Made by a program: the position numbers and the translations under genes. A DNA stretch of 64,000 nt from Hymenobacter artigasi. Lineage in GTDB: Bacteria; Bacteroidota; Bacteroidia; Cytophagales; Hymenobacteraceae. The notes under the pieces are model-generated. The model was not told the DNA's origin and made no database searches. It saw only the letters and a list, made by a program, of their open reading frames with translations. Position 1 is the stretch's first letter. Every line of letters starts with the position of its first letter. The stretch is taken from assembly GCF_012275535.1 (NCBI RefSeq), contig NZ_JAAVTK010000004.1, positions 310,001 to 374,000 of the forward strand, read 5' to 3'. This document shows, one piece after another, positions 28,025-64,000 of the stretch.

Positions 28025-28089
28025 TGCGGATGGTTTTCAATTTTTAACAAAAAACTGATTATCAATTATATAACAACTGTTTTGTGTTT

Positions 28090-28104
28090 TGGCACTTCCT
28101 TGGC
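28090..28104 (+). promoter_or_regulatory. Sigma-54 (RpoN) promoter A, upstream of receiver/OPX operon
   Basis: TGGCAC-TTCCTTG-GC: GG at 28091-28092 and GC at 28103-28104, the required GG-N10-GC spacing. Transcription should start near 28115, about 13 bp before the ATG at 28129. It shares TTGGCAC-N4-TTNGCC with promoters B, C and D in this window. Confidence 0.8.
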
Positions 28105-28128: not shown

Positions 28129-28713
28129 ATGCTTAACAAAACTGAAAAAATATTCCTGGTCGACGACGACCCTTATTGCCGCTGTTTGATAGAGCATGCG
28201 GTGCGCAGCCATGGCTATAGCGACGTGCACCTGTTTGAAAGCGGCGGGGCCTGCCTGGATGCGCTCATCGAGGAACCCGATATTATTTTTCTGGACCAGA
28301 GCATGGGCAGCGTGTCGGGCACCGACGCCCTGCGGGCCATCAAGCGCTTCAACCCCGATACCTACGTGGTGCTCGTGAGTGGGCAGCGCCACGTGCAGGT
28401 AGCCGTGGATTCCCTCAAGCTTGGGGCGTTCGACTACGTGGTCAAGGACGACCACCTCACCACCCGGCTCATCACGGTGCTCGACAAAATTGGCACGGTG
28501 AGCCAGCTGCTGGCCCAGCGCCAGGCACCTCAGCCCTCGCGGCTTAAGGCCTTCTTTTCCTCCTTTTCCAGGCCGGCACCCGTGGTGGGTGCGCCTTCCC
28601 TTTCCAATACCCCTCATGATTCAATTAGTACACCTTCGCGGCCCACTGGGTCTGATTCTCTTGCTCGCACTTGGCTTGCTGAGCAGCTGCACCCAAAACC
28701 TGTTCACTACTAA
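28129..28713 (+). CDS. Response regulator (receiver domain with Pro/Ser-rich tail)
   Basis: First gene of the sigma-54-controlled plus-strand polysaccharide operon. 194 residues: a receiver (1 to about 120) with VDDDP, phospho-acceptor Asp in IIFLDQSMGS, Ser in VLVSGQ and Lys in DYVVKDDH, then a roughly 70-residue Pro/Ser-rich tail without known domain. The start MLNKTEKIF (ATG 28129) fits the predicted transcript start. The last 98 bp overlap the OPX gene in another frame, an unusually long overlap. It probably links a histidine kinase or phosphorelay to export or synthesis, not to DNA binding. Confidence 0.88.
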   Translation: MLNKTEKIFLVDDDPYCRCLIEHAVRSHGYSDVHLFESGGACLDALIEEPDIIFLDQSMGSVSGTDALRAIKRFNPDTYVVLVSGQRHVQVAVDSLKLGAFDYVVKDDHLTTRLITVLDKIGTVSQLLAQRQAPQPSRLKAFFSSFSRPAPVVGAPSLSNTPHDSISTPSRPTGSDSLARTWLAEQLHPKPVHY

Positions 28714-29368
28714 AAAGGCGCTGCCGGCACCAAGTACCCTCGACGTGGGCCCGGGCTATCAGTACCACCTGCGCAAGGACGACAAAGTCAGCCTCAGCGT
28801 GTGGGACCACGAGGAGTTGAGCGTGGGCTCCATCTACGGGCACTACAGCGTGAACGAAATAGAGGGCAAATGGCTGCTGGTGGACGCCACCGGCGGCCTG
28901 AACGTGCCCAAGGTGGGCTCCTACCACGTGGAGGGCCTTACGGTGCCCGAGGCGGAGGAAATGCTGGAGAAAGTACTGAGCAAGTGGATTGTGAACCCGC
29001 AGCTGACCCTGAAAGTGCTGAACATGGAAGCCACCGTGCTGGGCGAAGTAGGCATTCCCGGCAAGCAGCGCTTTGAGAAAGAGCGCAACACCCTGGTGGA
29101 GGTGCTGGGCAAGGCCGGCGACTTTGGCGCCTACGCCGACAAGCGCCATGTGAAAGTGCTGCGCCAGGATGCCACCGGCACCAAAACCACCGAAGTAGAC
29201 CTGACCCAGCTCAGCAGCTTCGAGCGCAACAACCTAGTGATTGTGCCCGGTGACGTGGTGTACGTACCGGCCAAAAACGGCAAGCAGTTCGACCGCAAAG
29301 CGCCGTCGGTGCTGGGCATTGCCTCCATCGTGAGCACCATTCTCATTCTGACCCGCTTCTTCTTATAA
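28616..29368 (+). CDS. Polysaccharide export lipoprotein (OPX/Wza-like)
   Basis: A 250-residue outer-membrane polysaccharide export protein. The signal ends in LLALGLLSSC (lipobox Cys25), giving a lipid anchor. The poly-export domain (about 45-130) has GPGYQYHLRKDDKVSLSVWDHEEL and the SLBB-type domain follows (ATVLGEVGIPGKQRFEKERNTLVEVLGKAGDF). A hydrophobic C-terminal helix (SVLGIASIVSTILILTRFFL) is typical of OPX proteins of Bacteroidetes and would insert in the outer membrane. Start ATG 28616 lies inside the receiver gene; the PCP gene follows 10 bp after the stop. Confidence 0.93.
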   Translation: MIQLVHLRGPLGLILLLALGLLSSCTQNLFTTKKALPAPSTLDVGPGYQYHLRKDDKVSLSVWDHEELSVGSIYGHYSVNEIEGKWLLVDATGGLNVPKVGSYHVEGLTVPEAEEMLEKVLSKWIVNPQLTLKVLNMEATVLGEVGIPGKQRFEKERNTLVEVLGKAGDFGAYADKRHVKVLRQDATGTKTTEVDLTQLSSFERNNLVIVPGDVVYVPAKNGKQFDRKAPSVLGIASIVSTILILTRFFL

Positions 29369-29378
29369 TCCCTTTCCA

Positions 29379-31526
29379 ATGAGCGAATTGAAACAAACCT
29401 CCCGCCTGCTGCGCCCCTTGTGGCGGGGCCTGCCCGTGGTGCTGGTGTGCCTGGGCCTGAGCCTGGCCGCCGCCTGGCAATACCTGCGCTACGCCACGCC
29501 GATGTACGAAAGCACGGCCAAAATCAAGCTGGCCGACGTGAACGAAGGGGCCATGAACACGACCCTGATTAAGAACCTGGACGCCTTCTCGGGCACCGAC
29601 CGCAGCAGCGCCGAAGCCGAGCTGGTGCGCTCGCCCCTGCTGCTGGGCCGTGCGCTGGACCGCCTGTCCTTCGCCTTCGACCTGAGCACCTACCGCGTGG
29701 GCAAGCTGCGCACCACCGAAATGTACCGCGCCAGCCCTTTTCGGGTGGCACTGACGCTGCGCAACCCGAAGTGGGCCGAGAAGGCCATCGACCTGCGCAT
29801 CGACGCCGCCGGGGCCCTGACGCTGACCGCGCCATCGGGCGAAGTGGTGAGCGGCCGCCTGGGCCAGCCCATGCAGCTAACCGGCGCGGAAGTAACCATT
29901 ACCCGCAACGAGGAGCAGCTGAAAAACCGCCCCGACGTGCCCCTCGCCGACCACTACCGCCTGGTGCAGCACGACCGTGGCCAGCTGATTGAGGCCCTCG
30001 GCAGCCAGCTCGACGTGAGCAGCACCGACCACAACGTGCCCGTGCTGCGCATCAGCTACCAGAGCCCGGTGCCCCAGAAGGCCGCTGACTTGGTAAACGC
30101 CCTCACGGCCGTATATCTGGATGATTACCTGGCTACTAAGTACAAGGTGGTGAATGCCACCTCGCAGTCGATTGCCGAGCAGCTGAAGACCGTGCGCCGC
30201 ACACTCTCGCACTCGGAAGACACCGTGGAGCAATACCGCGACAAGAAGAGCATCGTTAACATCAAGCAGGAAACCGAAACTGACCTGCGCAAGATTGCGG
30301 AGCTGAAAATCCAACGCGCCAACATCCAGATGAGCCTGGCCGCCGCCAACGACCTCTACCGCTACATGACCAACGGGAAGGACCACGCCCTGGCGCTGGC
30401 CCCCAACTTCGAGACGTTCAACGACTTGCTCTCGACGGATATCATCAAGAAAATCAAGGACCTGCAGGCGGAAAAGCACGACCTGCTGCTGCGCTTCACG
30501 CCCGAAGATGCCCAGGTGCAAACCGTGGACCTGAAGCTGGCCGACCTCAACAGCTACCTGCTGGAAAGCATCCGGAACACGCGCACCAGCCTCACCATCC
30601 GCGCCCGCGACATCGACCGCACCATTCGGCAGTCGCAGGGCGTGTTTACGGGCCTGCCCACCCGCGAGAAAGATTTGGCCATTCTGGAGCGTGATTTTCA
30701 GCTGAATGAGAAGCTGTATACCTTCCTGCGGGAAAAGGAAACCGAAGCGGAGATTGCCAAGGCCACGCCCATTTCCTACCACCGCGTGATTGCCGATGGC
30801 CTGGTACCCACCGAGCCCACCTCCCCGCACCGGGGCTTCGTGCTGCTGGTGTCCGGCTTTTTGGGCCTGCTGGTGGGCTCGCTGCTGGCCTACCTGATTG
30901 CGGGCGTGAGCGCGACGCCGGGCGATGCTTACGCGGTGCAAAAAGAGGCTTCTACGCCACTGGCGGCCACTATTCCGCATTTGGGCGAAGACCTGGAAGG
31001 CCAGCTGGCCTTCTTCAAGCAGCTGGCCACGCGGCTGGCGCTCAAGGGCTTCTTCGTGCCCGGCAGCAAGCTGGTGGTGAGTGCTTTCTCGAACAAGGAA
31101 GGGCAGTCGTTTTTCTTTGAGCACCTGCGGCAGGCGTTGGCCTTGCAGGGCCTGAAAGTGCGCGCCCTGGTGCTGCGCGATGCGACGTCGCCAAACCCCG
31201 ACGCCCAGCCCGATGAGCTGCTGCTTATCCAAAACCTGACCCTGGCCCAGGACAGCCACGCCCTGGCTGTGATGACCGGTGCGCAGGCCAACCTGTTCGT
31301 CATCGACAGCCGCACCACGCCCACCGCCCGCCTCGCCGAGCTGGACCTGCTGGTGGCCGAATACCAGCTGCCCAATGTGCAGCTCTGCCTGAACCGCGAC
31401 GGCTACGACCCCGGCTTCCTGCGCATCGCGGCCCGCCGCCTGCGCCGCTGGACCCGCCACGTCCCGCAAGCTGCCGCCGAACCCACGGGCCTGCCCCTGC
31501 CCGCCGGCCTCGACCTGCAAGCATGA
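29379..31526 (+). CDS. Polysaccharide co-polymerase (Wzz/GumC-like) with degenerate tyrosine-kinase-like domain
   Basis: A 715-residue inner-membrane chain-length/export protein. Membrane segments near 17-37 and 485-510 bracket a large periplasmic domain with coiled coils (EQLKTVRRTLSHSEDTVEQY, RTIRQSQGVFTGLPTREKDL). The cytoplasmic C-terminal part (about 540-700) has the shape of a BY-kinase domain. Where a Walker A loop is expected it reads SAFSNKEGQSFFFEHLRQAL, without GKS/T, and there is no Tyr-rich tail. It is therefore probably not a kinase. It overlaps the flippase gene by 4 bp (ATGA) and is the central export gene of this arm. Confidence 0.9.
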   Translation: MSELKQTSRLLRPLWRGLPVVLVCLGLSLAAAWQYLRYATPMYESTAKIKLADVNEGAMNTTLIKNLDAFSGTDRSSAEAELVRSPLLLGRALDRLSFAFDLSTYRVGKLRTTEMYRASPFRVALTLRNPKWAEKAIDLRIDAAGALTLTAPSGEVVSGRLGQPMQLTGAEVTITRNEEQLKNRPDVPLADHYRLVQHDRGQLIEALGSQLDVSSTDHNVPVLRISYQSPVPQKAADLVNALTAVYLDDYLATKYKVVNATSQSIAEQLKTVRRTLSHSEDTVEQYRDKKSIVNIKQETETDLRKIAELKIQRANIQMSLAAANDLYRYMTNGKDHALALAPNFETFNDLLSTDIIKKIKDLQAEKHDLLLRFTPEDAQVQTVDLKLADLNSYLLESIRNTRTSLTIRARDIDRTIRQSQGVFTGLPTREKDLAILERDFQLNEKLYTFLREKETEAEIAKATPISYHRVIADGLVPTEPTSPHRGFVLLVSGFLGLLVGSLLAYLIAGVSATPGDAYAVQKEASTPLAATIPHLGEDLEGQLAFFKQLATRLALKGFFVPGSKLVVSAFSNKEGQSFFFEHLRQALALQGLKVRALVLRDATSPNPDAQPDELLLIQNLTLAQDSHALAVMTGAQANLFVIDSRTTPTARLAELDLLVAEYQLPNVQLCLNRDGYDPGFLRIAARRLRRWTRHVPQAAAEPTGLPLPAGLDLQA

Positions 31527-32797
31527 ACCCAACCCTGAACACGATGCTACCGAAGCCGCTCCGGGCCCTGCGCCTGGAGCGGCTTCGGCTGTCGCCGCGC
31601 TACTGGGTGGTGGCGGGCCAGGCCACGGTGAGCGCCACCAGCTTTCTGACCAACATCTTCATTGCCAGGCTGTGCGGCCTGGCCACCTTTGGCGAGTACA
31701 GCGCCTGGCAGCTGGTGCTGCTGCTGCTGCTGGCGGTGCAGGGGGCCGTTATCACGCAGCCCATGCAGGTGGTGGTGGGCGCGCTGCCCGCCACCCGCCG
31801 GGCCGCCTACCAGCAACTGCTGCTGGCGCTGCAGCTGATTTTTAGCCTGCTGGCGGTGGCGGGTGTGGTGGCGGGCGCCCGCCTGCTGCCCCAAGCCGCT
31901 GCGGTGCTGCCGGCTTTTGTGGTGCTGCTGGCCGCCACCGGGGGGCAGGATACGCTTCGCAAGCTGCTGCTGGCCGATGGCAAAGTGCAGGCGGCCCTGG
32001 CCAGCGACGTGCTCTCGGCCGGCGGGCAGCTGCTGGTGCTGCTGGCCCTGGCGCTCGGCCCCCAACCGGCCACGCTGGCCCAGGTGATGTGGGCCGTGGG
32101 CCTCACCACCGTGCCGGCGCTGCTGCTGGGCGGGCGGGTGCTGGGCGCGTGGCCCAGCCTGCGCGGCCTGCGCCGCTTTGGGCGGCGGCACTGGCGGCAG
32201 GCGCGCTGGCTACTGCCCACGTCGCTGCTCCAGTGGGGCTCGGCCAACGTGCTGCTGGTGTTTGCGGGCTGGGCGGGCTCGCCGGCCATGCTGGGCGTGC
32301 TGCGGCTGGCCCAAACGGCCATGGGCATCTTCAACCTGGGGCTGCAGGCGGTGGAGAATTATGCGTTGCCGCGCCTCAGCCAGAGCTTCTACCAAGCGCC
32401 CCAGCTGTTTGGCAAGCAGCGGGCGGCGCTGGCCCGCAAGATGCTGCTGGCGGCCGTGCCGGTACTGGCGCTGCTGGCCCTGGCGGCCGGGCCGCTGGTG
32501 GCGCGCTTCGGTCCGGCGGGCGGCAGCCAGTACGCTGATTTGCTGCGCTGGTGCTGTCTGCTCTACGTGGTGATTCTGCTGGTGTACCCGCTCCGGCTCA
32601 CCATCCGCCTGCAGGCCGATTCGCGCCATTATTTCGTGGGCTACGTGCTCAGCATCGTGGCTTCGCTGCTATCGGTGCGCTGGCTCACGGGGCACTACCA
32701 GGCCAGCGGCGTGGTGCTGGGCTGGCTGCTGGCCCAGCTGGTGCTGGGCGGCTACTGGGCGCTGGCCCTGCGCCGCACCGCGCCGGTGGTCAGGTGA
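31523..32797 (+). CDS. Oligosaccharide flippase-like membrane protein (Wzx type)
   Basis: A 424-residue protein with about 12 hydrophobic segments, beginning SPRYWVVAGQATVSATSFLTNIFIARLCGLATFGEYSAWQ in parts, the usual start of polysaccharide flippases (MATE/MOP superfamily). It would move lipid-linked repeat units across the inner membrane. It overlaps the PCP gene by 4 bp and so is translationally coupled to it. A second flippase gene lies at 43387-44796, so the locus has two. Confidence 0.88.
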   Translation: MNPTLNTMLPKPLRALRLERLRLSPRYWVVAGQATVSATSFLTNIFIARLCGLATFGEYSAWQLVLLLLLAVQGAVITQPMQVVVGALPATRRAAYQQLLLALQLIFSLLAVAGVVAGARLLPQAAAVLPAFVVLLAATGGQDTLRKLLLADGKVQAALASDVLSAGGQLLVLLALALGPQPATLAQVMWAVGLTTVPALLLGGRVLGAWPSLRGLRRFGRRHWRQARWLLPTSLLQWGSANVLLVFAGWAGSPAMLGVLRLAQTAMGIFNLGLQAVENYALPRLSQSFYQAPQLFGKQRAALARKMLLAAVPVLALLALAAGPLVARFGPAGGSQYADLLRWCCLLYVVILLVYPLRLTIRLQADSRHYFVGYVLSIVASLLSVRWLTGHYQASGVVLGWLLAQLVLGGYWALALRRTAPVVR

Positions 32798-33136: not shown

Positions 33137-34267
33137 ATGAAAATCATTCACTTAATCCTCGGCAAAGCCAACCCCGAACGCATGAACGGGGTGAACAAGG
33201 TGGTGCACGCGCTGGCCACCCAGCAGCAGCGCGCCGGGGCCGATGTGGCCGTGTGGGGCATCACCGCCGACCTCAGCGAAAACTACCCGGCCCGCGAGTT
33301 TGCGACCCGGCTGTTTCCGGCGCAGCGCAACCCGTTTGGGGTGGCCAAAGCGCTGCTGGCAGCTCTGGACGAGCTGAGCCGCGGCTCGGCGGTGGTGCAT
33401 TTGCACGGGGCGTTTATTCCGGCGTTTTATACGCTGGCGCGGCGGCTCACGGCGCTCGACATCCCGTATGTGCTCACGCCGCACGGCAGCTACAGCCCGG
33501 CGGCCCGGCGCAAAAGCTGGCTCACCAAGCTGGCCTACGCATTTTTGTTTGAGGGCTACCTGCTGCGGCACTCGGCACGGGTCCACTGCCTGGGCCTGAG
33601 CGAGGTAACGGGCGTGGAGCACATGAGCCACACCGTGCGCACCAGCCTGATGCCCTACGGCTTTGAGCCGCCCCAGGCGGTGCTGCCCCTGTTTCCGGCC
33701 GCGCGGGGCCGCTTCCGGGTGGGCTTCTGCGGCCGGCTCGATGACAACCACAAGGGCCTGGACTGCCTGCTGGCCGGCTTCGCCGAATTTGCCCGGCTGG
33801 TGCCCGAGGCCGAGCTGTGGGTAATTGGCGACGGCCCCGACCGCCAACTGGTGGCCGACTGGGCCGCCGAAGCCCCGGAAGGCTCGGTGCAGCTGCTGGG
33901 CAGCCGCTACGGCGATGAGAAAATTGCCCTGCTGGGCCAGCTCGATGTATTTGCTCACACCTCCCACTACGAGGGCCTGCCCACCGCCGTGCTCGAAGCC
34001 GTGGCCCTGGGCATACCGTGCGTGGTGACCGAGGCCACCAACCTGGGCAGCTACGTGCGCGAGTTTGGCTGCGGCGAAGTGTTGGCCACCGCCAGCCCGG
34101 CCCTGCTCACCGATGCCCTGCACCGCCTGTACGCCCAATGGGCCGCTGCCCCGGCCGAAACCGAGGCGCTGGCCCTGCGCTGCCGCCGCATGGTGCGCAC
34201 CGCCTTCAGCTGGCCCAACCTGCTGCCCGCCTACGAACAAATGTACCAGGAAGCCCTCGCGGCCTAA
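33137..34267 (+). CDS. Glycosyltransferase family 4
   Basis: A 376-residue GT-B glycosyltransferase. The N-terminal half has MNGVNKVVHALATQQQRAGADV and LTPHGSYSPAARRKSWLTKL; the C-terminal half has RVGFCGRLDDNHKGLDCLL and the donor-binding EGLPTAVLEAVALGIPCVVTEA near 279, with the E-x7-E pair. It adds a sugar to the lipid-linked repeat at the cytoplasmic membrane face; which sugar is not readable. It is the first gene of the unit behind sigma-54 promoter B and is followed 7 bp later by the polymerase-like gene. Confidence 0.93.
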   Translation: MKIIHLILGKANPERMNGVNKVVHALATQQQRAGADVAVWGITADLSENYPAREFATRLFPAQRNPFGVAKALLAALDELSRGSAVVHLHGAFIPAFYTLARRLTALDIPYVLTPHGSYSPAARRKSWLTKLAYAFLFEGYLLRHSARVHCLGLSEVTGVEHMSHTVRTSLMPYGFEPPQAVLPLFPAARGRFRVGFCGRLDDNHKGLDCLLAGFAEFARLVPEAELWVIGDGPDRQLVADWAAEAPEGSVQLLGSRYGDEKIALLGQLDVFAHTSHYEGLPTAVLEAVALGIPCVVTEATNLGSYVREFGCGEVLATASPALLTDALHRLYAQWAAAPAETEALALRCRRMVRTAFSWPNLLPAYEQMYQEALAA

Positions 34268-34274
34268 CTTATTT

Positions 34275-35576
34275 ATGGCCAAACCTCTACCTTCCGCCGC
34301 GCCGCACCGGGTGTTTCTGCGCACCATGGGCGGGCTGCTCACCCTGATTGTGCTCATCAAGCTCGCCGGCTTTTTTGCCTGGAACGATGACATTGGCGTC
34401 ACCCGTATCCTGAAGCTGGTGACCCGCCTGGGCATGACGGCCGCCGTCATCGGCGCGTATTCGCTGATAATCCGCCGGGGCGCGGTGGACTCGTTTCGCT
34501 GGCGCAACAGCCCGGTGCCGCTGCTCTACGGGGCCTACCTGGCGCTGGGGCTGGCCTCGCTGCTCTGGTCGCGCAACCCCGGCTACTCGTTTCTGCAGTG
34601 GATGATGGACATGGAAAGCCTCGTGTTTGCCTACTACTTCGTGAAGTGCTTTTTGCTGCTCAAGGAGTTTTTCCCGGATAGCCAGGTGCGCTTTTACCAC
34701 GTGCTGGGCAATGCCGTGTTCGTGATTCTGCTGGTGTTTCTGGTGGGTGCGCTGGTAGCGCCCGACGTGTTTTACCGCCTCACCCACGGCGGCGAGGAGG
34801 CCCGCCTGGGCGGCTACCTTATGAATCCCAACGAGCTGGGCATGCTGTGCGTGGTGGGCATTGCCTGCCTCATGTTTGACTTGCAGCGCCACCACCGCAC
34901 GGTGCTCACGGTGGTTAAAATCGGGCTGCTGCTGCTGGCGCTGGTGCTCACCGGGTCGCGCTCGTCGCTGGTGGGGTTTGTGCTGGTGCTGTTTTTCCAT
35001 ATCAGGCAGGCGGGCAACCCGCGTATTAAGTGGGCTGCCAATGCGGCCGTGCTGCTGGGCGTAGTGGCCCTGGTACCGCTGCTCTTCATCAAGCAGGGCG
35101 GGCTGGAGGAAGTGCTGAGCATGACCGGCCGGCTGCCCTTCTGGCACGCGCTGCTCACGGAGGCGCTGCCCCGCGAGCCGCTGCTGGGCTACGGCTTCAT
35201 GCGCATCAGCTACGGCGAGTATTTCCAGAGCGTGCACACCTACGCCGCCCAGATGGCCCACAACACCTTCATTCAGGTGCTGCTGAACCTGGGGCTGGTG
35301 GGCTTCACCATTGCCATGCTCCAGCTGGGCTTCACCATCCGGGCCTTCGTGCGGCAGGCCGACCCGCAGGTGCGGCTGCTGGGGGCGGGCCTGCTCATCC
35401 CCATTCTCATCAATTCCTTCACCGAGTTCGGCATTTTTGGCATGACGAACTATGGCATCCTGTTCTATCAGTTCCTCATCTTTTTCGGCAGCCTGCACTA
35501 CCACGCCCGGCTCTCGCCCGGCGAGCAGCTCTGGCTGCACCGCCGCCGCCCCGAGCTGGCCCTGGCCGTAGCCTGA
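34275..35576 (+). CDS. O-antigen ligase/polymerase family protein (Wzy type)
   Basis: A 433-residue membrane protein with about 11 hydrophobic segments, starting at MAKPLPSAAPHRV (ATG 34275); the open frame upstream overlaps the GT4 gene and is not protein-like. The Wzy_C signature lies around NPNELGMLCVVGIACL and LTGSRSSLVGFVLV, with the large outer loop holding GYGFMRISYGEYFQSVHTYAAQMAHNTFIQVLLNLG in parts (the H-N pair is family-typical). It would polymerise or ligate repeat units outside the inner membrane. A second such protein is encoded at 50318-51871. Confidence 0.9.
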   Translation: MAKPLPSAAPHRVFLRTMGGLLTLIVLIKLAGFFAWNDDIGVTRILKLVTRLGMTAAVIGAYSLIIRRGAVDSFRWRNSPVPLLYGAYLALGLASLLWSRNPGYSFLQWMMDMESLVFAYYFVKCFLLLKEFFPDSQVRFYHVLGNAVFVILLVFLVGALVAPDVFYRLTHGGEEARLGGYLMNPNELGMLCVVGIACLMFDLQRHHRTVLTVVKIGLLLLALVLTGSRSSLVGFVLVLFFHIRQAGNPRIKWAANAAVLLGVVALVPLLFIKQGGLEEVLSMTGRLPFWHALLTEALPREPLLGYGFMRISYGEYFQSVHTYAAQMAHNTFIQVLLNLGLVGFTIAMLQLGFTIRAFVRQADPQVRLLGAGLLIPILINSFTEFGIFGMTNYGILFYQFLIFFGSLHYHARLSPGEQLWLHRRRPELALAVA

Positions 35577-36437: not shown

Positions 36438-39155
36438 ATGAAACCTACCTTTTGCCCCCCGGCTGCGGCCCCATCCTGCCGCACGGCGCTGGCGGCCGCC
36501 GAGCAGCGCATTCAGCAGCTCACGGCGGCCCTGGCGCAGGCCCGCAAGGGCGAGCAGCTGGTGGATCAGCTCGCCAACCGGCTGCACGAAGGCCTGCTGC
36601 TGCTGGATGCCACGGGGGCCATTGTGCTGGCCAACCAGCGGTTTTTCAGCTTGCTGGGGCTGGCCGATGCGCCGGCCGCCTGGCACGGCCAGCCCTTGCG
36701 CGGCCTGGCGGCCCAGGTGCAGCCCCTGGTGGCCGCGCCCGCCGACCTGGTGCGCTGGGCCGAGCACGCGCCGCACACGCTGCCCCAGGGCCGGCCGGGA
36801 TTGCTCCGGCTCAAGGGCGGCGCGGTGCTGGCTTGTGAGCTAAGGCCGGCGGCGGCTGATGCGGGCCCGGCCGGTACCTGGCTGCTCACGCTGCGCGACG
36901 TGAGTGAGCAGCAGCAGCAGCTGGCAGCCCTGCAGTCGATTTCCAATATTCTCTACGAAAACCCCAGCCCGATTGTGCGCATCGGGGCCAACCAGCAGCA
37001 GCTTTATGCCAACCCGGCCGCCCGGCGCGTGGGCCTGCGCCTGTCGCGGCCCGAGCAGGTGCGGCTGCAGAAGCAGCTGCGCTGCGCCGCCGCCGCCGCC
37101 CTGGCGCAGGCCACGGCCCAGCAGCTCGAAGTATCGATGGGCGAGTCGCTATACAGCGTGGCCGTGATGCCGTTTCCGCGGGAAGGCTACGTCAACCTGT
37201 ATTTTTCCGACATCTCGGAGCGCGAAAACGTGCGGCGGCAGCTGGCCGAGCATCAGCAGTTTACCCAGCAGGTGCTCGACACCATTCCCGCCCTGGTTTT
37301 TGTGCGGGATACGAAGCAGAAACTGGTTTTTCAGAACCCGGCCATGCAGAGCCTGATGGCCAGCTCCGGCATGGCGAGGCCCGACGCCGTGCCCCCGGAT
37401 AGCGTGCTGGCCCGGGAGCTGGCCGGGTACGCGGCCGCCGACGCGCAGGTGCTGGCCACGGGCCGGCAAATAGCCGTCGAAGAGCCCCACACCCTGCTCA
37501 ATGGCACCACCCACTGGTTTTATACCGTGAAGCGCCCCCTGCACCGGCCCGATGGCACAGTGCACGTACTGGGCGTGAGCACTGACATCACGGCCCTGAA
37601 GCATAGCCGGCAAACCCTGGAGCGCAGCGAAAAGCAGTACCGCGACCTGATGAACTACAGCCAGGCCCTCATCGGCACCTGTGACATGCAGGGCACAGTC
37701 ATCACCGCGAATCCGGCCCTGGCCCGCCTGCTGTGCGAAGATGCGGCCAAGATGGTCGGCACGTCGGTAACCGTGCACATGACGGAGGAAGACCGCGAGG
37801 GCTTTTCATTTTACCTGGAGCAGATTGCCCGCACCGGTGAGGCAGCGGGGGTGTTACCGGTGCATCCCCGCGGCAGCGACCAGCTGCGCTACCTACACTA
37901 CCACAACTATGTGGTGCGCGAGCCTGGCCAGGAGCCCTACATTGTATCGCACGGCCACGATATTACCGAGCGGGTATTGGCCAGCAAGGAGCTAAAGCGG
38001 GCCAAGGAAGCCGCCGAGGCCGCCGTGCTGGCCCGCGAAAACTTCCTGGCCAACATGAGTCACGAAATCCGCACGCCCATGAACGGCGTGCTGGGCGTGG
38101 CCAATTTGCTGGCTAAAACGTCCCTCAGCCCCGAGCAGCAGGAGTACCTGCGCATCATCCGCCGTTCGGGGCAGCACCTGCTGGCGGTGCTCAACGATGT
38201 GCTCGACATGGCCAAAATCGCCTCCGGCAAGCTGGAGCTGAATCTGGAATCGTTTAATCTGTGTGATTCGGTGACGCATGCCTTACAGCCGCTGGCCTTG
38301 CAGGCCCTGGAAAAGGGCCTGCGCTTCGAGGGGAAGCCGCTGAGCGCCACCTGCCCCTACCCCATGGTGCAGGCCGATGCCCACCGCCTGAACCAGATTA
38401 TGCTGAACCTGGTGAGCAACGCCATCAAATTCACGCCGGCGGGCGGACGGGTGAAAGTACAGAGCGAGCTACTGGGCGAAACCGCCGACACGCTCACCGT
38501 GCGGTTTCGCGTGACCGACACGGGCCTGGGCATGCTCCCCGAAGTGCAGGCACGCATCTTCGAAAGCTTCACCCAGGCCTACGCCGATACGGCGCGGCAT
38601 TTTGGGGGCACGGGCCTGGGCCTGAGCATCAGCCGAGGCCTGGTAGAGCAGATGGGCGGTGAGCTGACGGTAACCAGCGCCCCCCGCGTGGGCAGCTCCT
38701 TCGCCTTCAGCCTCACGCTGGCCAAGGCCGTGGTGCCGGCCGCAGAAAGCCTGGCGGAAGCCTTCGACACCGGCGTGCTGGCCGGCTTGCGGGTGCTGCT
38801 GGTGGAAGACAACGACATCAACCGCTTCGTGGCCCGGTGCACCATGCAGGAATGGGGCGTGGTGGTGACCGAAGCCGAGGATGGCGCCAGCGGGGTGGCC
38901 CGGTTTGCCCAGGAGCCCTTCGACCTGGTACTGATGGACATTCAGATGCCCGGCATGAGCGGCCTGGACGCCACGGCCATCATTCGGGCCCATCCCGAGC
39001 CGGCGCGGGCCGCCGTGCCCATCCTGGCCCTCACGGCCAACGCCTTCCACGCCGACCACGAGCGCTACCGCGCCGCCGGCATGAACGACTGCCTGGCCAA
39101 GCCCTTCGAAGAAGCCGAGCTCTACACCAAGCTCCTGAAGCTGCTGCGCTACTAA
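36438..39155 (+). CDS. Hybrid histidine kinase with multiple PAS domains and C-terminal receiver
   Basis: A 905-residue, apparently cytoplasmic sensor kinase. A short coiled coil (RTALAAAEQRIQQLTAAL) is followed by about four PAS-like segments (about 45-165, 175-265, 275-395, 405-520). The HisKA domain has FLANMSHEIRTPMNG (His about 542). The ATPase domain has LVSNAIKFTPAGG, DTGLGM and GTGLGLSI. The receiver (about 785-905) has LVEDNDIN, phospho-acceptor Asp in LVLMDIQMP (about 834) and the Lys in CLAKPF. Having both H and D, it should feed a phosphorelay through an HPt protein; one is encoded at 58976-59401. There are no obvious membrane segments, so the signal is intracellular. Confidence 0.94.
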   Translation: MKPTFCPPAAAPSCRTALAAAEQRIQQLTAALAQARKGEQLVDQLANRLHEGLLLLDATGAIVLANQRFFSLLGLADAPAAWHGQPLRGLAAQVQPLVAAPADLVRWAEHAPHTLPQGRPGLLRLKGGAVLACELRPAAADAGPAGTWLLTLRDVSEQQQQLAALQSISNILYENPSPIVRIGANQQQLYANPAARRVGLRLSRPEQVRLQKQLRCAAAAALAQATAQQLEVSMGESLYSVAVMPFPREGYVNLYFSDISERENVRRQLAEHQQFTQQVLDTIPALVFVRDTKQKLVFQNPAMQSLMASSGMARPDAVPPDSVLARELAGYAAADAQVLATGRQIAVEEPHTLLNGTTHWFYTVKRPLHRPDGTVHVLGVSTDITALKHSRQTLERSEKQYRDLMNYSQALIGTCDMQGTVITANPALARLLCEDAAKMVGTSVTVHMTEEDREGFSFYLEQIARTGEAAGVLPVHPRGSDQLRYLHYHNYVVREPGQEPYIVSHGHDITERVLASKELKRAKEAAEAAVLARENFLANMSHEIRTPMNGVLGVANLLAKTSLSPEQQEYLRIIRRSGQHLLAVLNDVLDMAKIASGKLELNLESFNLCDSVTHALQPLALQALEKGLRFEGKPLSATCPYPMVQADAHRLNQIMLNLVSNAIKFTPAGGRVKVQSELLGETADTLTVRFRVTDTGLGMLPEVQARIFESFTQAYADTARHFGGTGLGLSISRGLVEQMGGELTVTSAPRVGSSFAFSLTLAKAVVPAAESLAEAFDTGVLAGLRVLLVEDNDINRFVARCTMQEWGVVVTEAEDGASGVARFAQEPFDLVLMDIQMPGMSGLDATAIIRAHPEPARAAVPILALTANAFHADHERYRAAGMNDCLAKPFEEAELYTKLLKLLRY

Positions 39156-59506: not shown

Positions 59507-59521
59507 GCTAACGGGGTGCCA
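59507..59521 (-). promoter_or_regulatory. Sigma-54 (RpoN) promoter C, upstream of HPt operon
   Basis: Minus strand TGGCAC-CCCGTTA-GC: GG at 59520-59519, GC at 59508-59507, N10 spacing, in the context TTGGCAC-N4-TTAGCCTTGC. Predicted start near 59495. It should drive the roughly 17-kb minus-strand operon. Confidence 0.8.
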
Positions 59522-59585
59522 AAAGATTTTTATTTGATATGTATTTTAAAATCAATTATTTATAAATACATCTATCCTGCAAAAA

Positions 59586-60047: not shown

Positions 60048-60110
60048 ATGAGGCCAAGGACACCATTATTAAAGCATTAATTTTCAGTTACTTAAAAATT
60101 ATATTTTCTT

Positions 60111-60125
60111 TGGCACCCCATTCGC
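60111..60125 (+). promoter_or_regulatory. Sigma-54 (RpoN) promoter D, upstream of kinase-fusion operon
   Basis: TGGCAC-CCCATTC-GC: GG 60112-60113, GC 60124-60125, N10 spacing, preceded by an AT-rich strip. The predicted start (about 60137) falls on the ATG at 60138, so the message would be leaderless or nearly so. Confidence 0.75.
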
Positions 60126-60137
60126 CCTGGGGCTGGC

Positions 60138-62606
60138 ATGACTCATTCGCTACCCGTTTCCGACCACACCACCGACCCGGCCGATTTGCCCGCGCTGCTG
60201 GCCCGCCTGGGCTACGCTCCGGTAGCCACTGGCGGGGTGCGCCTGCGGGGCTGCCCCAACCCCGACGGCAGCCTGCGCTGGCTGTGGCCCACCACCCTGC
60301 GGCAGCCCCTGTTTCTGGAGCTGTACAACGCGGCATCGCCCAAGGCGCGGCTGTTTAGCGCCTTCGTGCGGCTGGTGTTTTTCTGCCGGCTGCAGGGGGT
60401 GTTTTTTCGGCGTTTGCCGGGGCAGTTTGCGGCAACCGGCCAGCAGGTGTGGCCCCGGGCCGATTTTGCCTTGTTTACCGGTACGCCCGGCCCCAACCGC
60501 AAGGCGGTGTGCTGCTACGCATTGGCCCCCGGCCAGCTGGTGTTTGCCAAGCTGCCGCTGGGCCCCGTTTCGGCCGAAAAAGTGCAGGCCGAAACCACTA
60601 CCCTGCTCCACCTGAACCAGCGCGGCTTCACCCGGTTCGACCTGCCCCGGGTGCTCGATTACGAGCCCGGCCACCTGCTGCAAAGCAGCGTGCAGGTGCC
60701 CGGCGCCCGGCGCGCCACGCGCTTCGGGCCGGCCCACGCCAGCTGCCTCCAGGAACTGCTGGCCACCACGGGCACGCGGCAGCCCCTGGCCGCCAGCAAC
60801 TGCTGGGAAAGCATTACCGGGCAGGTAGCCGAGCTGCAGGAGCTGAGCGAAACGCGGGTGCCCTTCGGCCTGCGCACCAAGCTCCGGCACCTGCTCGCCA
60901 CCCTCGACCCCAACCAGGAAATCTCGGTCGGCTTTGCCCACGGCGACTTCACGCCCTGGAACTGCTGGCTGGGGCCCGAGAAGCTGGCCATCTACGACCT
61001 GGAGCTGGCCCTGCCCGAAGCCTCGCTGCTCTACGACCTGTTCCATTTTGAGGTGCAGCAGGCCCTGCTCACCACGCGCCGGTCGGCGGTTGATATCCGG
61101 ACGCAGGCGCTGGCCACGGCCCAGCGGCACTTTGCCACGGTGCCGGCGGCCGAGTTAGGCGTGGCCTGGCAGCTGTATCTGCTGCACCAGGTGGCAACCG
61201 GGGCGCTGCTCTACCACGCCCAAACGGCCTGGCACCCGCAGGTGAGCTGGCTGCTGAACGGCTGGAACGCCCTGCTCACCCTGGAGCTGGCCCCCGCCAT
61301 GGAGCACCGCCAGCTGGCCATTTTCGACCTGCTCGACTACGTGCAGCTGCTGGGCCAGCCCGGCGTGGTGCTCAAGCCCCGCGCCGCCAACGCCTACTAC
61401 CCCGCCCCATCTTCCGACCTCGACCTGCTGCTGGAGGAAGCCGATATGGAAGCGGGCGTGCACTTCCTGCGCCATTATCCGCTGGCGCAATCGGCGGTGC
61501 TGCGGCCGGCCGCGCACATGCAGTCCGTCGATTGCCTGTTTCAGGATGGCTCCCTGCTGTCCGTCGACCTGCTGCACCAGCTCGAGCGCATGGAGCTGCG
61601 CCTGCTCGATGCCGAGGCCGTGCTGAGCCAGGCCGAGCGGGCCGTGGCCGGCGTGCCCGTGCCCAGCCTACGCGACGATTTTGTGTACACCTGGCTGTTC
61701 TACTGGCTCAACCAGAGCAACCTGCCGCTGAACCATTTGCGGCATTTCCAGCAGCTGGCCGCCGGGCAGCAGGCGGCGCTGCTGGCCCACCTCACCGCCG
61801 CCTACGGCCTCACCTTCCACAGCCTGGCCGAGGCCAGCGTGTACGTGCCGGCCAAGGCCGAGCACCTGGCCTTCACCCTGCGCCAGGCCCAGGCCAATGG
61901 CCGGCTCCACCGCTGGGCGCGCGGCCTACGCTACCTGCTGAGCACGGCGGTGGAGTTTGGGCGGCCGGGCGGCCTCATCATCACCTTCAGCGGGGTCGAT
62001 GGCGCGGGCAAGTCCACGGTGATTGAGCACGTGAAGGAGCGGCTCGAAAAGAAGTGGCGCAAGCGCGTGGTGGTCATCCGCCACCGGCCGTCGGTGCTGC
62101 CCATCATCAGCGCCTGGAAGTATGGCAAGCAGGGTGCCGAGGCGCGCAGCGTGCAGAACCTGCCCCGCCAGGGCCAGAACTACAGCCTGGGCTCGTCGCT
62201 GGCCCGCTTTGCCTACTACTATGTCGATTATGTTTTTGGCCAGGCCGTTATCTGGCTCCGGCACACCCGGCGCGGCCACGTCGTGCTCTACGACCGGTAT
62301 TATTTCGACTTCATCAACGACGGCCGGCGCAGCAACATCGACCTGCCCGCCCGCCTCACGCAAGCGCTCTACGCCTTGGTGAATAAGCCCCGGCTCAACT
62401 TCTTCCTCTACGCCGACCCGCAGGAGATTCTGCGCCGCAAGCAGGAGCTTTCGGCCAGCACCATCACCCAGCTCACGCAGCAGTACAAAACGCTGTTTGG
62501 CCAGCTTGGGGCCCGCTACCGCGACTCGCGCTACGTGCCCATCGAAAACCAGGATTTGGACACCACGCTGGCCCTGATTGGCCAGTACATCCAGCAGGAA
62601 ATTTAA
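60138..62606 (+). CDS. Three-domain fusion: APH-like kinase, nucleotidyltransferase-like domain, thymidylate-kinase-like domain
   Basis: An 822-residue cytoplasmic protein, not recognised as a named enzyme. Residues about 1-330 resemble aminoglycoside/choline phosphotransferases: the Brenner-type FAHGDFTPWNCW near 267 and IYDLELA (metal site) near 290. The middle (about 400-480) has SSDLDLLLEEADM, a nucleotidyltransferase-type acidic pair, followed by CLFQDGSLLSVDLL. Residues about 610-822 are P-loop kinase of the thymidylate kinase type: ITFSGVDGAGKSTVIEHVKE, VVIRHRP, LYDRYYFDFINDGRRSN and FFLYADPQEILRRKQEL. It probably activates or phosphorylates a sugar or lipid precursor. It is the first gene behind sigma-54 promoter D. 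Confidence 0.85.
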   Translation: MTHSLPVSDHTTDPADLPALLARLGYAPVATGGVRLRGCPNPDGSLRWLWPTTLRQPLFLELYNAASPKARLFSAFVRLVFFCRLQGVFFRRLPGQFAATGQQVWPRADFALFTGTPGPNRKAVCCYALAPGQLVFAKLPLGPVSAEKVQAETTTLLHLNQRGFTRFDLPRVLDYEPGHLLQSSVQVPGARRATRFGPAHASCLQELLATTGTRQPLAASNCWESITGQVAELQELSETRVPFGLRTKLRHLLATLDPNQEISVGFAHGDFTPWNCWLGPEKLAIYDLELALPEASLLYDLFHFEVQQALLTTRRSAVDIRTQALATAQRHFATVPAAELGVAWQLYLLHQVATGALLYHAQTAWHPQVSWLLNGWNALLTLELAPAMEHRQLAIFDLLDYVQLLGQPGVVLKPRAANAYYPAPSSDLDLLLEEADMEAGVHFLRHYPLAQSAVLRPAAHMQSVDCLFQDGSLLSVDLLHQLERMELRLLDAEAVLSQAERAVAGVPVPSLRDDFVYTWLFYWLNQSNLPLNHLRHFQQLAAGQQAALLAHLTAAYGLTFHSLAEASVYVPAKAEHLAFTLRQAQANGRLHRWARGLRYLLSTAVEFGRPGGLIITFSGVDGAGKSTVIEHVKERLEKKWRKRVVVIRHRPSVLPIISAWKYGKQGAEARSVQNLPRQGQNYSLGSSLARFAYYYVDYVFGQAVIWLRHTRRGHVVLYDRYYFDFINDGRRSNIDLPARLTQALYALVNKPRLNFFLYADPQEILRRKQELSASTITQLTQQYKTLFGQLGARYRDSRYVPIENQDLDTTLALIGQYIQQEI

Positions 62607-62615
62607 GCGGCCACC

Positions 62616-63347
62616 ATGAAATCTCTCCTCGAAAAATGGGTGCGCCGGCGCAACCCGCACTTTGCCCTGCACCCCCGCGTGAGCAGCGCCGTGCTGCTGG
62701 GCTTCGGCTTCCAGACGGCCCTGAGCCTGCTGCGCGGCGGCCAACTGTGGCTGCGCGGCCGGGCCAGCGGCGGGGCCATGCTGGGCCAGGGCGTCCGGTT
62801 TCAGTACCTGGGGCTCATTCGCTTTGGGAAGTTCCTGAAAACGGGCGATAACGTGCGCTTCAGCGGCCTGGGTACTGATGGGCTGACGCTGGGCGACAAC
62901 GTGAGCATCGGCGCTTTCAGTCAGGTCATTGTCTCGACTTCGCTCAGCGAGCCGGGCCGGTTTATCCGGGTGGGCAGCCGGGTGGGCATCGGCGAGTTTG
63001 CCTACCTGGGCGGCGGCGGTGGCCTGAGCATCGGCGACGACTGCATCATCGGCCAGTACTTCAGCTGCCACCCCGAAAACCACCGGCACGCCGAGTTCGA
63101 CACGCTCATCCGCCTGCAGGGCGTGGTGCGCCAGGGCATCAGCATCGGAGCCAACTGCTGGATTGGCAGCAAAGTAACCGTGCTCGACGGCGTGACCATT
63201 GGCGCGGGCTGCGTGGTGGCTGCTGGCGCCGTGGTCACGCGCCCGGTGCCGGCCGGCTGCGTGGTGGCGGGCGTGCCGGCCCGCATCATCGCCTACCGCG
63301 AACCGGCCGAAACCGCCGCCGCCGAATTAGTCAACGCACTCGCATGA
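62616..63347 (+). CDS. Hexapeptide-repeat acyltransferase
   Basis: A 243-residue left-handed beta-helix acyltransferase. A roughly 70-residue N-terminal amphipathic part precedes the ladder: LGDNVSIGAFSQVIVS, VGSRVGIGEFAYLGGGG, IGDDCIIGQYFSCHPENH, ISIGANCWIGSKVTVLDGV and the end VVTRPVPAGCVVAGVPARII. It likely acetylates a sugar in the polysaccharide. It starts 9 bp after the fusion-kinase stop and overlaps the next GT by 4 bp (ATGA). Confidence 0.92.
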   Translation: MKSLLEKWVRRRNPHFALHPRVSSAVLLGFGFQTALSLLRGGQLWLRGRASGGAMLGQGVRFQYLGLIRFGKFLKTGDNVRFSGLGTDGLTLGDNVSIGAFSQVIVSTSLSEPGRFIRVGSRVGIGEFAYLGGGGGLSIGDDCIIGQYFSCHPENHRHAEFDTLIRLQGVVRQGISIGANCWIGSKVTVLDGVTIGAGCVVAAGAVVTRPVPAGCVVAGVPARIIAYREPAETAAAELVNALA

Positions 63348-64000
63348 ACACCGTATTAATCACCGCCTACGCCGTCAATCCCTACAAAGGCTCGGAAGAC
63401 GGCATGGGCTGGAATTTCATCCTCCAGGCCGCCCGCTTCCAGAAAGTGGTGGCCGTGACGCGCCGCAACAACGGCCCGCACATTGTGCGCTACCTGGCCG
63501 AAAACCCCGCCGTGGCCGCCCAGGCCGCCCGCGTAGAGTTTCTCTATTTCGACCTGCCCGCCTGGACGCGCTGGTGGAAAAAAGGCCCGCTGCTCTCGCT
63601 CATCTACTTCTATATGTGGCAGCTGGGCCTGGCCCTGTGGCTGCGCGCCCGCCGCCCGGCCGTGGACGTGGTGCACAACCTCAACTTCCATAACGACTGG
63701 ACACCCAGCTTCCTCTGGCTGCTGGGCCGGCCGCTGGTGTGGGGGCCCATCGGGCACCACCCGCCCATTCCGGCCAGCCACCTGGCCCGCTACGGCGCGG
63801 TGGCCTTCTGCAAAGACCGCCTCATTGGCAGCCTGAAGCATTTTTTCTGGCACCTCGACCCTTTTTTGTGGCTGACGCGCCGCACCGCCCGCCGCGTGCT
63901 GTGCATGAACTCGACCGCCGGTCACCGCCTGGGCCGCCCCGCTTCGGCTTTTGAAATTATGCCCTCGGTGGCCATTGACCTGCCGGCCGCCGCAGGGGAG
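63344..64000 (+). CDS. Glycosyltransferase (GT4-like), partial at window edge
   Basis: The frame opens at ATG 63344, overlapping the acyltransferase stop, and stays open for 219 codons to the window end, so the C-terminus is missing. The N-terminal domain reads MNTVLITAYAVNPYKGSEDG, MGWNFILQAARFQKVVAVTRRN, VVHNLNFHNDWTPSFLWLLG, PLVWGPIGHHPPIPASHL and RRVLCMNSTAGHRLGR, the acceptor half of GT-B enzymes in the GT4 clan that begin with the A-x-x-PxxGSE motif. The catalytic donor half lies beyond the window. Confidence 0.88.
   Translation, partial: MNTVLITAYAVNPYKGSEDGMGWNFILQAARFQKVVAVTRRNNGPHIVRYLAENPAVAAQAARVEFLYFDLPAWTRWWKKGPLLSLIYFYMWQLGLALWLRARRPAVDVVHNLNFHNDWTPSFLWLLGRPLVWGPIGHHPPIPASHLARYGAVAFCKDRLIGSLKHFFWHLDPFLWLTRRTARRVLCMNSTAGHRLGRPASAFEIMPSVAIDLPAAAGE

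Follow-up and report, generated by a model that had tools for sequence, protein, structure and literature searches.

Introduction

In Campylobacter, the enzymes Cj1415-1418 make CDP-phosphoramidate 3'-phosphate for the capsule (PMC11800397). In pseudomycoidin, phosphates and a hexose are added by a pair consisting of a kinase and a nucleotidyltransferase-like protein (PMC9266682). Here we describe a gene in a 64,000-nucleotide stretch of the Hymenobacter artigasi genome (contig NZ_JAAVTK010000004.1, positions 310,001 to 374,000; to be referred to as the window) that combines three enzyme folds in one polypeptide of 822 residues. These are a kinase of the aminoglycoside phosphotransferase (APH) fold, a nucleotidyltransferase fold and a P-loop kinase of the thymidylate kinase (TMPK) fold.

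The triple-fusion gene (60138..62606, + strand) recurs across Bacteroidota as a conserved part of a Wzx/Wzy-type exopolysaccharide cluster whose gene order is nearly fixed. We lean toward the interpretation that its product is a cytoplasmic trifunctional enzyme of this pathway, which would supply a phosphorylated, probably nucleotide-activated substituent for the repeat unit.

Overall architecture of the fusion protein

The open reading frame starts with the ATG at 60138 and its stop is at 62606. The GC content at codon positions 1, 2 and 3 (0.70, 0.44 and 0.89) indicates a strong coding composition, and the frame is open in every full-length homologue checked. A sequence-only reading of this DNA had proposed the order kinase, nucleotidyltransferase and TMPK-like kinase from a few short motifs. 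All of them are present in the 822-residue frame: HGDFTPWN (residues 268-275), DLEL (287-290), SSDLDLLL (425-432), the P-loop GVDGAGKS (619-626) and the DRY motif in DRYYFD (719-724). The order itself is upheld by the structural model, by fold searches, and by the same order in the homologues.

The AlphaFold2 model of the whole protein, produced from an alignment of 26 sequences, has a predicted local distance difference test score (pLDDT) of 87.6 and a predicted template modeling score of 0.82. Fold searches recover TMPKs and APH-type kinases with this model, and nucleotidyltransferases with a separate model of the middle domain. The architecture of three folds is supported by this combination of structure prediction and fold search. 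Comparison with Pfam agrees with it in part. Thymidylate_kin (PF02223) is the only family that matches the window protein (31.2 bits against a cut-off of 27), and it is found in all 26 aligned members, while APH is found in 12 of the 26 (best E value 1.5e-8); no significant family is found for the middle domain.

Residue conservation was counted over 81 full-length proteins. The key catalytic residues of the three domains are conserved in this set, most of them invariant, which makes activity of all three sites probable.

The APH/choline-kinase-fold domain

Domain 1 (residues 36-385; 60243..61292, + strand) is assigned to the APH/choline-kinase fold from Foldseek matches, from the Pfam family of its relatives and from its residues. 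With the full model, Foldseek finds choline kinase (2ckq_B) with an E value of 2.1e-6 over 338 columns, APH(3')-IIa (1nd4) at 3.9e-6, and pneumococcal LicA (4r7b) at about 2e-5. The sequence profile of the domain gives weak kinase matches only against the PDB. The window protein has no match to PF01636, and the 12 relatives that do match have E values up to 0.1; some of the separate-gene homologues (see below) exceed the gathering cut-off.

The side chains expected at the active site are retained. K138, E152, D270, N275, D287 and E289 are found in all 81 proteins, and position 268 is His in 75 of them and Gln in the other 6. A first segment lacking an ATP site would have undermined the proposed order, and this objection does not apply.

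The domain shares with the APH/choline kinase superfamily (PF01636, LicA) the fold, the HGDxxxxN catalytic loop, the Lys-Glu pair and the metal-binding D287xE289 motif. On the other hand, it has a family-specific N-terminal FxGTPGxxR/N loop, an extra N-terminal segment, and two enzymes fused to it. Moreover, the window protein scores below Pfam detection for PF01636, which only some of its relatives reach.

The nucleotidyltransferase-fold domain

Domain 2 (residues 386-611; 61293..61970, + strand) has a polymerase-beta-like nucleotidyltransferase fold, as judged from a separate domain model, fold matches and conservation. Its sequence profile finds nothing reliable in the PDB, and the assignment needed a fold comparison. 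A gathering-score match to PF14907 (NTP_transf_5) was not obtained, with a hit in 1 of the 26 members only (E value 0.011). Folded alone (residues 386-612), the domain has a pLDDT of 95.4. A first Foldseek pass was weak (best E value 1.1e-3), with nucleotidyltransferases also among the matches. In the structural alignments the closest match is ANT(2'')-Ia (5cfu), with a Z score of 10.3 and a root mean square deviation (rmsd) of 3.5 over 153 aligned residues, followed by MenT1 (Z score 9.9), JHP933 (8.9) and LnuA (8.3). The top matches are nucleotidyltransferases, and the possibility that the middle segment has some other fold can be set aside. LicD/fukutin-type transferases, which belong to the nucleotidyltransferase superfamily, are not among the fold matches listed for this domain.

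The acidic triad D427, D429 and D477 is invariant in the 81 proteins. Domain 2 resembles ANT(2'')-Ia, LnuA, MenT and PF14907 in its fold, in its helical C-terminal part, and in the D-x-D motif with a third Asp. It differs from them in the region before the acidic motif, where the canonical hG[GS] motif is absent and Lys413 stands in its place, and in having no significant Pfam family match.

The best structural matches of the fusion, ANT(2'')-Ia, APH(3')-IIa, LnuA and the MenT toxins, are antibiotic-modifying or toxin-type enzymes, and a function of this kind could be read from them. However, the likeness is that of a shared superfamily fold, with identities of just 7-15%, and the gene lies in a conserved biosynthetic operon with no resistance or toxin-antitoxin context. 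Such a function is highly improbable.

The thymidylate-kinase-fold domain

Domain 3 (residues 611-822; 61968..62603, + strand) is a P-loop kinase of the TMPK fold, with PF02223, the fold match and its residues in agreement. Foldseek with the full model finds thymidylate kinases with E values of about 1e-6. Superposition of residues 611-822 on Thermus thermophilus TMPK (5x7j) with VIA-align gives a Z score of 19.6 and an rmsd of 2.9 over 178 aligned residues. D621, G624 and K625 of the P-loop (619-626), R650 and P651 of an RHRP motif (648-651), D719, R720 and D724 of DRYYFD (719-724), and R767, K768 and E770 are invariant in the 81 proteins.

The similarity to TMPK (PF02223/TIGR00041) thus includes the fold, the GVDGAGKS P-loop, the DRY motif and the basic residues of the LID, and the phosphate-handling residues are kept in the alignment with canonical Tmk. 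There are several differences, however. The domain scores 28.7 bits against the TIGR00041 dTMP (thymidine monophosphate) kinase equivalog, far below the cut-off of 83.25. Where TMPKs usually have an EP motif, it has a conserved and basic RHRP; an RFxYYY motif is also conserved, and the domain is the C-terminal portion of a fusion. In TMPKs an arginine of the ADR motif contacts the thymine. The residue aligned with it, at position 695, is Tyr in 75 and Phe in 6 of the 81 proteins, this position having been assigned from a low-identity profile alignment with canonical Tmk (L167). The thymine-binding arginine thus appears to be absent, and the acceptor is therefore probably not dTMP. We infer from these residues that domain 3 may phosphorylate a different phosphorylated acceptor.

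A dTMP kinase function was rejected in view of the equivalog score and of Tyr/Phe695. A related explanation, that the fusion is the dTMP kinase of the cell or another housekeeping enzyme and lies in the cluster by chance, is disfavored and can almost be dismissed. The fusion gene is indeed the sole Pfam Thymidylate_kin match of its own genome. However, most relatives in the same genus lack the fusion and also have deoxynucleoside-kinase-like matches only, so the fusion is not a replacement for Tmk, and its place in exopolysaccharide operons is fixed. In the TIGR00041 search, a canonical dTMP kinase was not found in this genome or in most Hymenobacter relatives, and the best matches (L168, L170-L174) are deoxynucleoside-kinase-like proteins (MHIAIVGNIGAGKTTL).

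Domain 3 might also be an ordinary nucleotide kinase that reuses the nucleoside monophosphate left over from the reactions of the transferase domain or of glycosyltransferases, with domains 1 and 2 alone modifying the polymer. The close TMPK fold, with the P-loop, DRY and LID basic residues retained, is compatible with such recycling, as is the existence of two relatives (L135 and L136) that lack this domain. We regard it as improbable in view of the sub-equivalog score, the Tyr/Phe at the thymine-contact position and the basic RHRP motif. The housekeeping nucleoside monophosphate kinases would also be expected to make a dedicated copy redundant.

A conserved exopolysaccharide cluster

Full-length homologues with the identical three-domain order were retrieved at 80 loci from the genome collection, in many families of Bacteroidota. 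The hosts include Hymenobacter, Flavobacterium, Chryseobacterium, Fulvivirga, Saprospiraceae and Balneolaceae. The typical order around these loci is histidine kinase, response regulator, Wza, Wzc, Wzx, glycosyltransferase, Wzy, fusion, hexapeptide transferase, two glycosyltransferases, DUF1972 glycosyltransferase and polyprenyl-phosphate sugar transferase. A hexapeptide family gene adjoins the fusion in 69 of the 80 loci, and an NtrC-type sigma-54 activator is present in some. In the family clustering of the neighbors at these loci, two kinds of glycosyltransferase merged, and the count for that family covers both.

The neighbors were surveyed at the 57 loci that have five or more genes on both sides of the fusion. 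A glycosyltransferase is present in all 57, the DUF1972 glycosyltransferase in 55 and another glycosyltransferase in 54; a regular expression for the AYACEP-GSE glycosyltransferase proved too strict to give a usable count. Wzx is found in 52 loci, Wzc, Wzy and the hexapeptide transferase in 51 each, and Wza in 49. The polysaccharide context that the sequence-only reading had suggested is supported by this linkage. Its statement that the gene heads a polysaccharide unit holds for this genome, where a + strand unit begins with the fusion, and not for most relatives, where it is operon-internal, between Wzy and the acetyltransferase-like gene.

Within the genus the fusion is sporadic, most Hymenobacter relatives being without it, and in Hymenobacter swuensis it is carried by a 299,298-base plasmid (NZ_CP007144.1, 131646-132197; L009). 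For these two reasons the cluster is considered accessory and possibly mobile. A phage search gave no match. At four loci (L073, L078, L103 and L120) the usual order is broken just ahead of the fusion by a gene whose product has about 2000-2300 residues.

Separate-gene and partial forms

The three domains also occur in a split form, with a separate gene for the APH-like kinase and a protein that contains domains 2 and 3 (NT-TMPK, NT for nucleotidyltransferase). In nine loci of the phylum Bacteroidota (L130-L134, L138-L140 and L175), the APH gene adjoins the NT-TMPK gene or is a few genes away. Both gene orders occur, sometimes with a glycosyltransferase in between. The genomes that carry the split form have 1 to 13 PF01636 genes each, and because these genes are so sparse, we estimate that an APH neighbor within 5 kb would arise by chance in no more than a few per cent of cases.

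The same pairing is present in plasmid exopolysaccharide loci of Leisingera, Agrobacterium and Legionella, where the homology of both partners was confirmed with hidden Markov models (HMMs). In a collection of 72,556 plasmid records, 5 match the Leisingera APH query and all 5 hold NT-TMPK. Glycosyltransferases similar to the GT4-type enzyme encoded near the fusion (see below) also accompany the separate-gene form. The fusion in one lineage and the co-location in varied orders elsewhere are strong evidence that the three predicted activities serve one pathway.

A Streptomyces plasmid exopolysaccharide cluster (L164) has APH-like and TMPK-like genes. A protein of 271 residues in this cluster (L164:11591-12403), with an FKHL...GDLD motif, was considered as a separate nucleotidyltransferase. 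Profile comparison does not support this, and it is not claimed here.

Proposed function

The activity proposed for the fusion is a deduction from its architecture, its intact sites, its operon and its genomic linkage, which are themselves observed. The protein has no long hydrophobic helix, and therefore would act in the cytoplasm, ahead of the flipping of the repeat unit by Wzx. The three domains may act one after another on a single substrate, either a small molecule or a lipid-linked sugar. The first kinase would phosphorylate a hydroxyl, and the transferase domain would attach a nucleotidyl or other phospho-group to the phosphorylated hydroxyl. The TMPK-like domain would then phosphorylate this phosphorylated product, or its nucleotide, a second time. 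Transfer of the substituent to the repeat unit could be the work of a conserved neighboring glycosyltransferase or of the transferase domain itself. The order of these steps, the acceptor and the donor are inferred.

Several observations weigh against this proposal. In domain 2, positions 411-416 contain no conserved Gly/Ser pair in the 81 proteins, and K413 is found there in 79 of them. Because the hG[GS] motif is absent, nucleotide transfer can be assigned to this domain only tentatively. The cluster has no recurring separate gene for a cytidylyltransferase or for NDP-sugar synthesis. Two relatives (L135:9328-10932 and L136:9239-11143) lack a TMPK domain but have the APH domain together with a partial or complete nucleotidyltransferase domain, and at one locus (L176), the only exception found, a TMPK homologue stands alone without APH or polysaccharide genes nearby. 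The three activities are therefore not strictly inseparable. The L135 and L136 relatives are still near cluster-type genes; they may represent partial decay or a two-step version.

The main rival is direct decoration, in which the enzyme acts on the undecaprenyl-linked oligosaccharide. The kinase would phosphorylate a sugar hydroxyl and the other domains would extend the phosphate, with no soluble donor. A transferase fold without the G[GS] motif need not move nucleotides, and PsmN, which is annotated as a nucleotidyltransferase, may add a hexose to a phosphorylated peptide (PMC9266682). The strict conservation of the fusion beside glycosyltransferases and Wzx would also fit, and in the predicted structure a hydrophobic helix with basic residues (68-82) could touch the membrane. 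However, the protein has no clear membrane anchor, and the TMPK domain keeps nucleotide-kinase-like phosphate-binding residues, which usually serve a small phosphorylated acceptor. Direct decoration is unlikely on balance, but it is the strongest of the rivals.

The reading that we prefer, synthesis of an activated substituent, is close to the earlier suggestion that the protein could make an activated precursor in one polypeptide. The order of the domains, their polysaccharide setting and three sites that are likely to be active agree with that suggestion; the nucleotide-activated product is a prediction.

Organization of the cluster in Hymenobacter artigasi

The ancestral cluster is found in this genome in two halves, which lie about 24.5 kb apart. 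The upstream half, from the response regulator to Wzy, covers about 28.1-35.6 kb by HMM matches, all on the + strand. It comprises the response regulator (28129..28713, from an in-frame ATG after the listed start at 28084; cluster HMM 1.6e-50), a Wza-type export protein (28589..29368; 8e-100, Poly_export/SLBB family), a Wzc/Wzz-type chain-length protein (29379..31526; 2e-271), a Wzx-type flippase (31523..32797; 7.1e-134, Polysacc_synt_3), a glycosyltransferase (33137..34267; 4.4e-116) and a Wzy-type polymerase/ligase (34065..35576, the listed start being probably too far upstream; 1.1e-197, Wzy_C).

Between the halves are a cluster-type histidine kinase (36438..39155, + strand; 8.4e-150) and a polysaccharide unit on the minus strand, with its own Wzc-like, Bac_transf and Wzx-like genes. 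The downstream half begins with the fusion at 60.1 kb. Its direct conserved neighbor is a hexapeptide-repeat, O-acetyltransferase-like gene (62616..63347, + strand; Pfam Hexapep 1.5e-13), followed by a GT4-type glycosyltransferase with the AYAVNPYKGSE motif (63344..64000, + strand, running past the window end; whole gene L129:3345-4595). The half continues beyond the window with a DUF1972 glycosyltransferase, an NtrC-type activator and a histidine kinase in L129.

A motif scan finds a sigma-54-like -24/-12 element, TTTGGCACCCCATTCGC, before the fusion gene (60109..60125, + strand), 28 bp upstream of its start codon. Near-identical elements precede the divergent polysaccharide unit (59507..59523, - strand) and the upstream half of the ancestral cluster (28088..28104, + strand). 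The pattern TTTGGCAC-N4-TT-N-GC thus has three sites in the window, at the starts of both cluster halves and of the minus-strand unit, and no others, with 0.04 expected. A similar element is present in 6 of 11 Hymenobacter loci, there too 28 bp ahead of the start codon of the fusion. The NtrC-type activator gene is located downstream (L129:7443-8789), and rpoN is present in the genome. A generic sigma-70 promoter scan gave nothing useful. Control of exopolysaccharide-linked genes by sigma-54 and an NtrC-like regulator has a precedent in the Proteobacterial PEP-CTERM/EpsH system (PMC1569441).

Comparison with known systems

In the open-access PMC literature, no paper on the fusion or on the APH/NT-TMPK pair in polysaccharide loci was found. 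The lipocone paper (PMC12419801) has APH-like kinases in a figure key only. It is possible, more doubtfully, that the fusion and its separate-gene equivalents represent an undescribed multi-phylum pathway to a new nucleotide-activated phospho-donor for exopolysaccharides. A phosphorylated substituent would then be a shared, unrecognized feature of many environmental bacterial matrices. If an activated phospho-donor is made, the fusion would define a new class of precursor enzyme. Little is known of the chemistry of the polymers that environmental Bacteroidota form in biofilms and slime, and the fusion points to one defined, testable chemical step, with the separate-gene forms of Proteobacteria as an independent experimental route.

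An analogy can be drawn with the Cj1415-Cj1418 pathway, in which a kinase, a nucleotidyl transfer and a second kinase lead to an activated phospho-donor for a surface polysaccharide. The likeness is one of logic only. The Cj1415-Cj1418 enzymes belong to unrelated families and are encoded by separate genes, and their pathway has an additional amide-releasing step. PsmK and PsmN are likewise an analogy only, a kinase followed by an enzyme annotated as a nucleotidyltransferase, acting one after the other. Their substrate is a peptide and there is no P-loop TMPK; PsmK is an HprK-type kinase.

The cluster itself resembles the described Wzx/Wzy-dependent exopolysaccharide clusters in its Wza, Wzc, Wzx, Wzy, glycosyltransferases, polyprenyl-phosphate sugar transferase and O-acetyltransferase-like gene. 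It differs from them in having the triple fusion as a conserved member, and no described cluster of this type was found. The parts of the fusion belong to known superfamilies, while their combination, its conservation and its linkage across phyla appear to be undescribed. We class the fusion as a new enzyme, with a modifying or activating role, in exopolysaccharide pathways that are already known.

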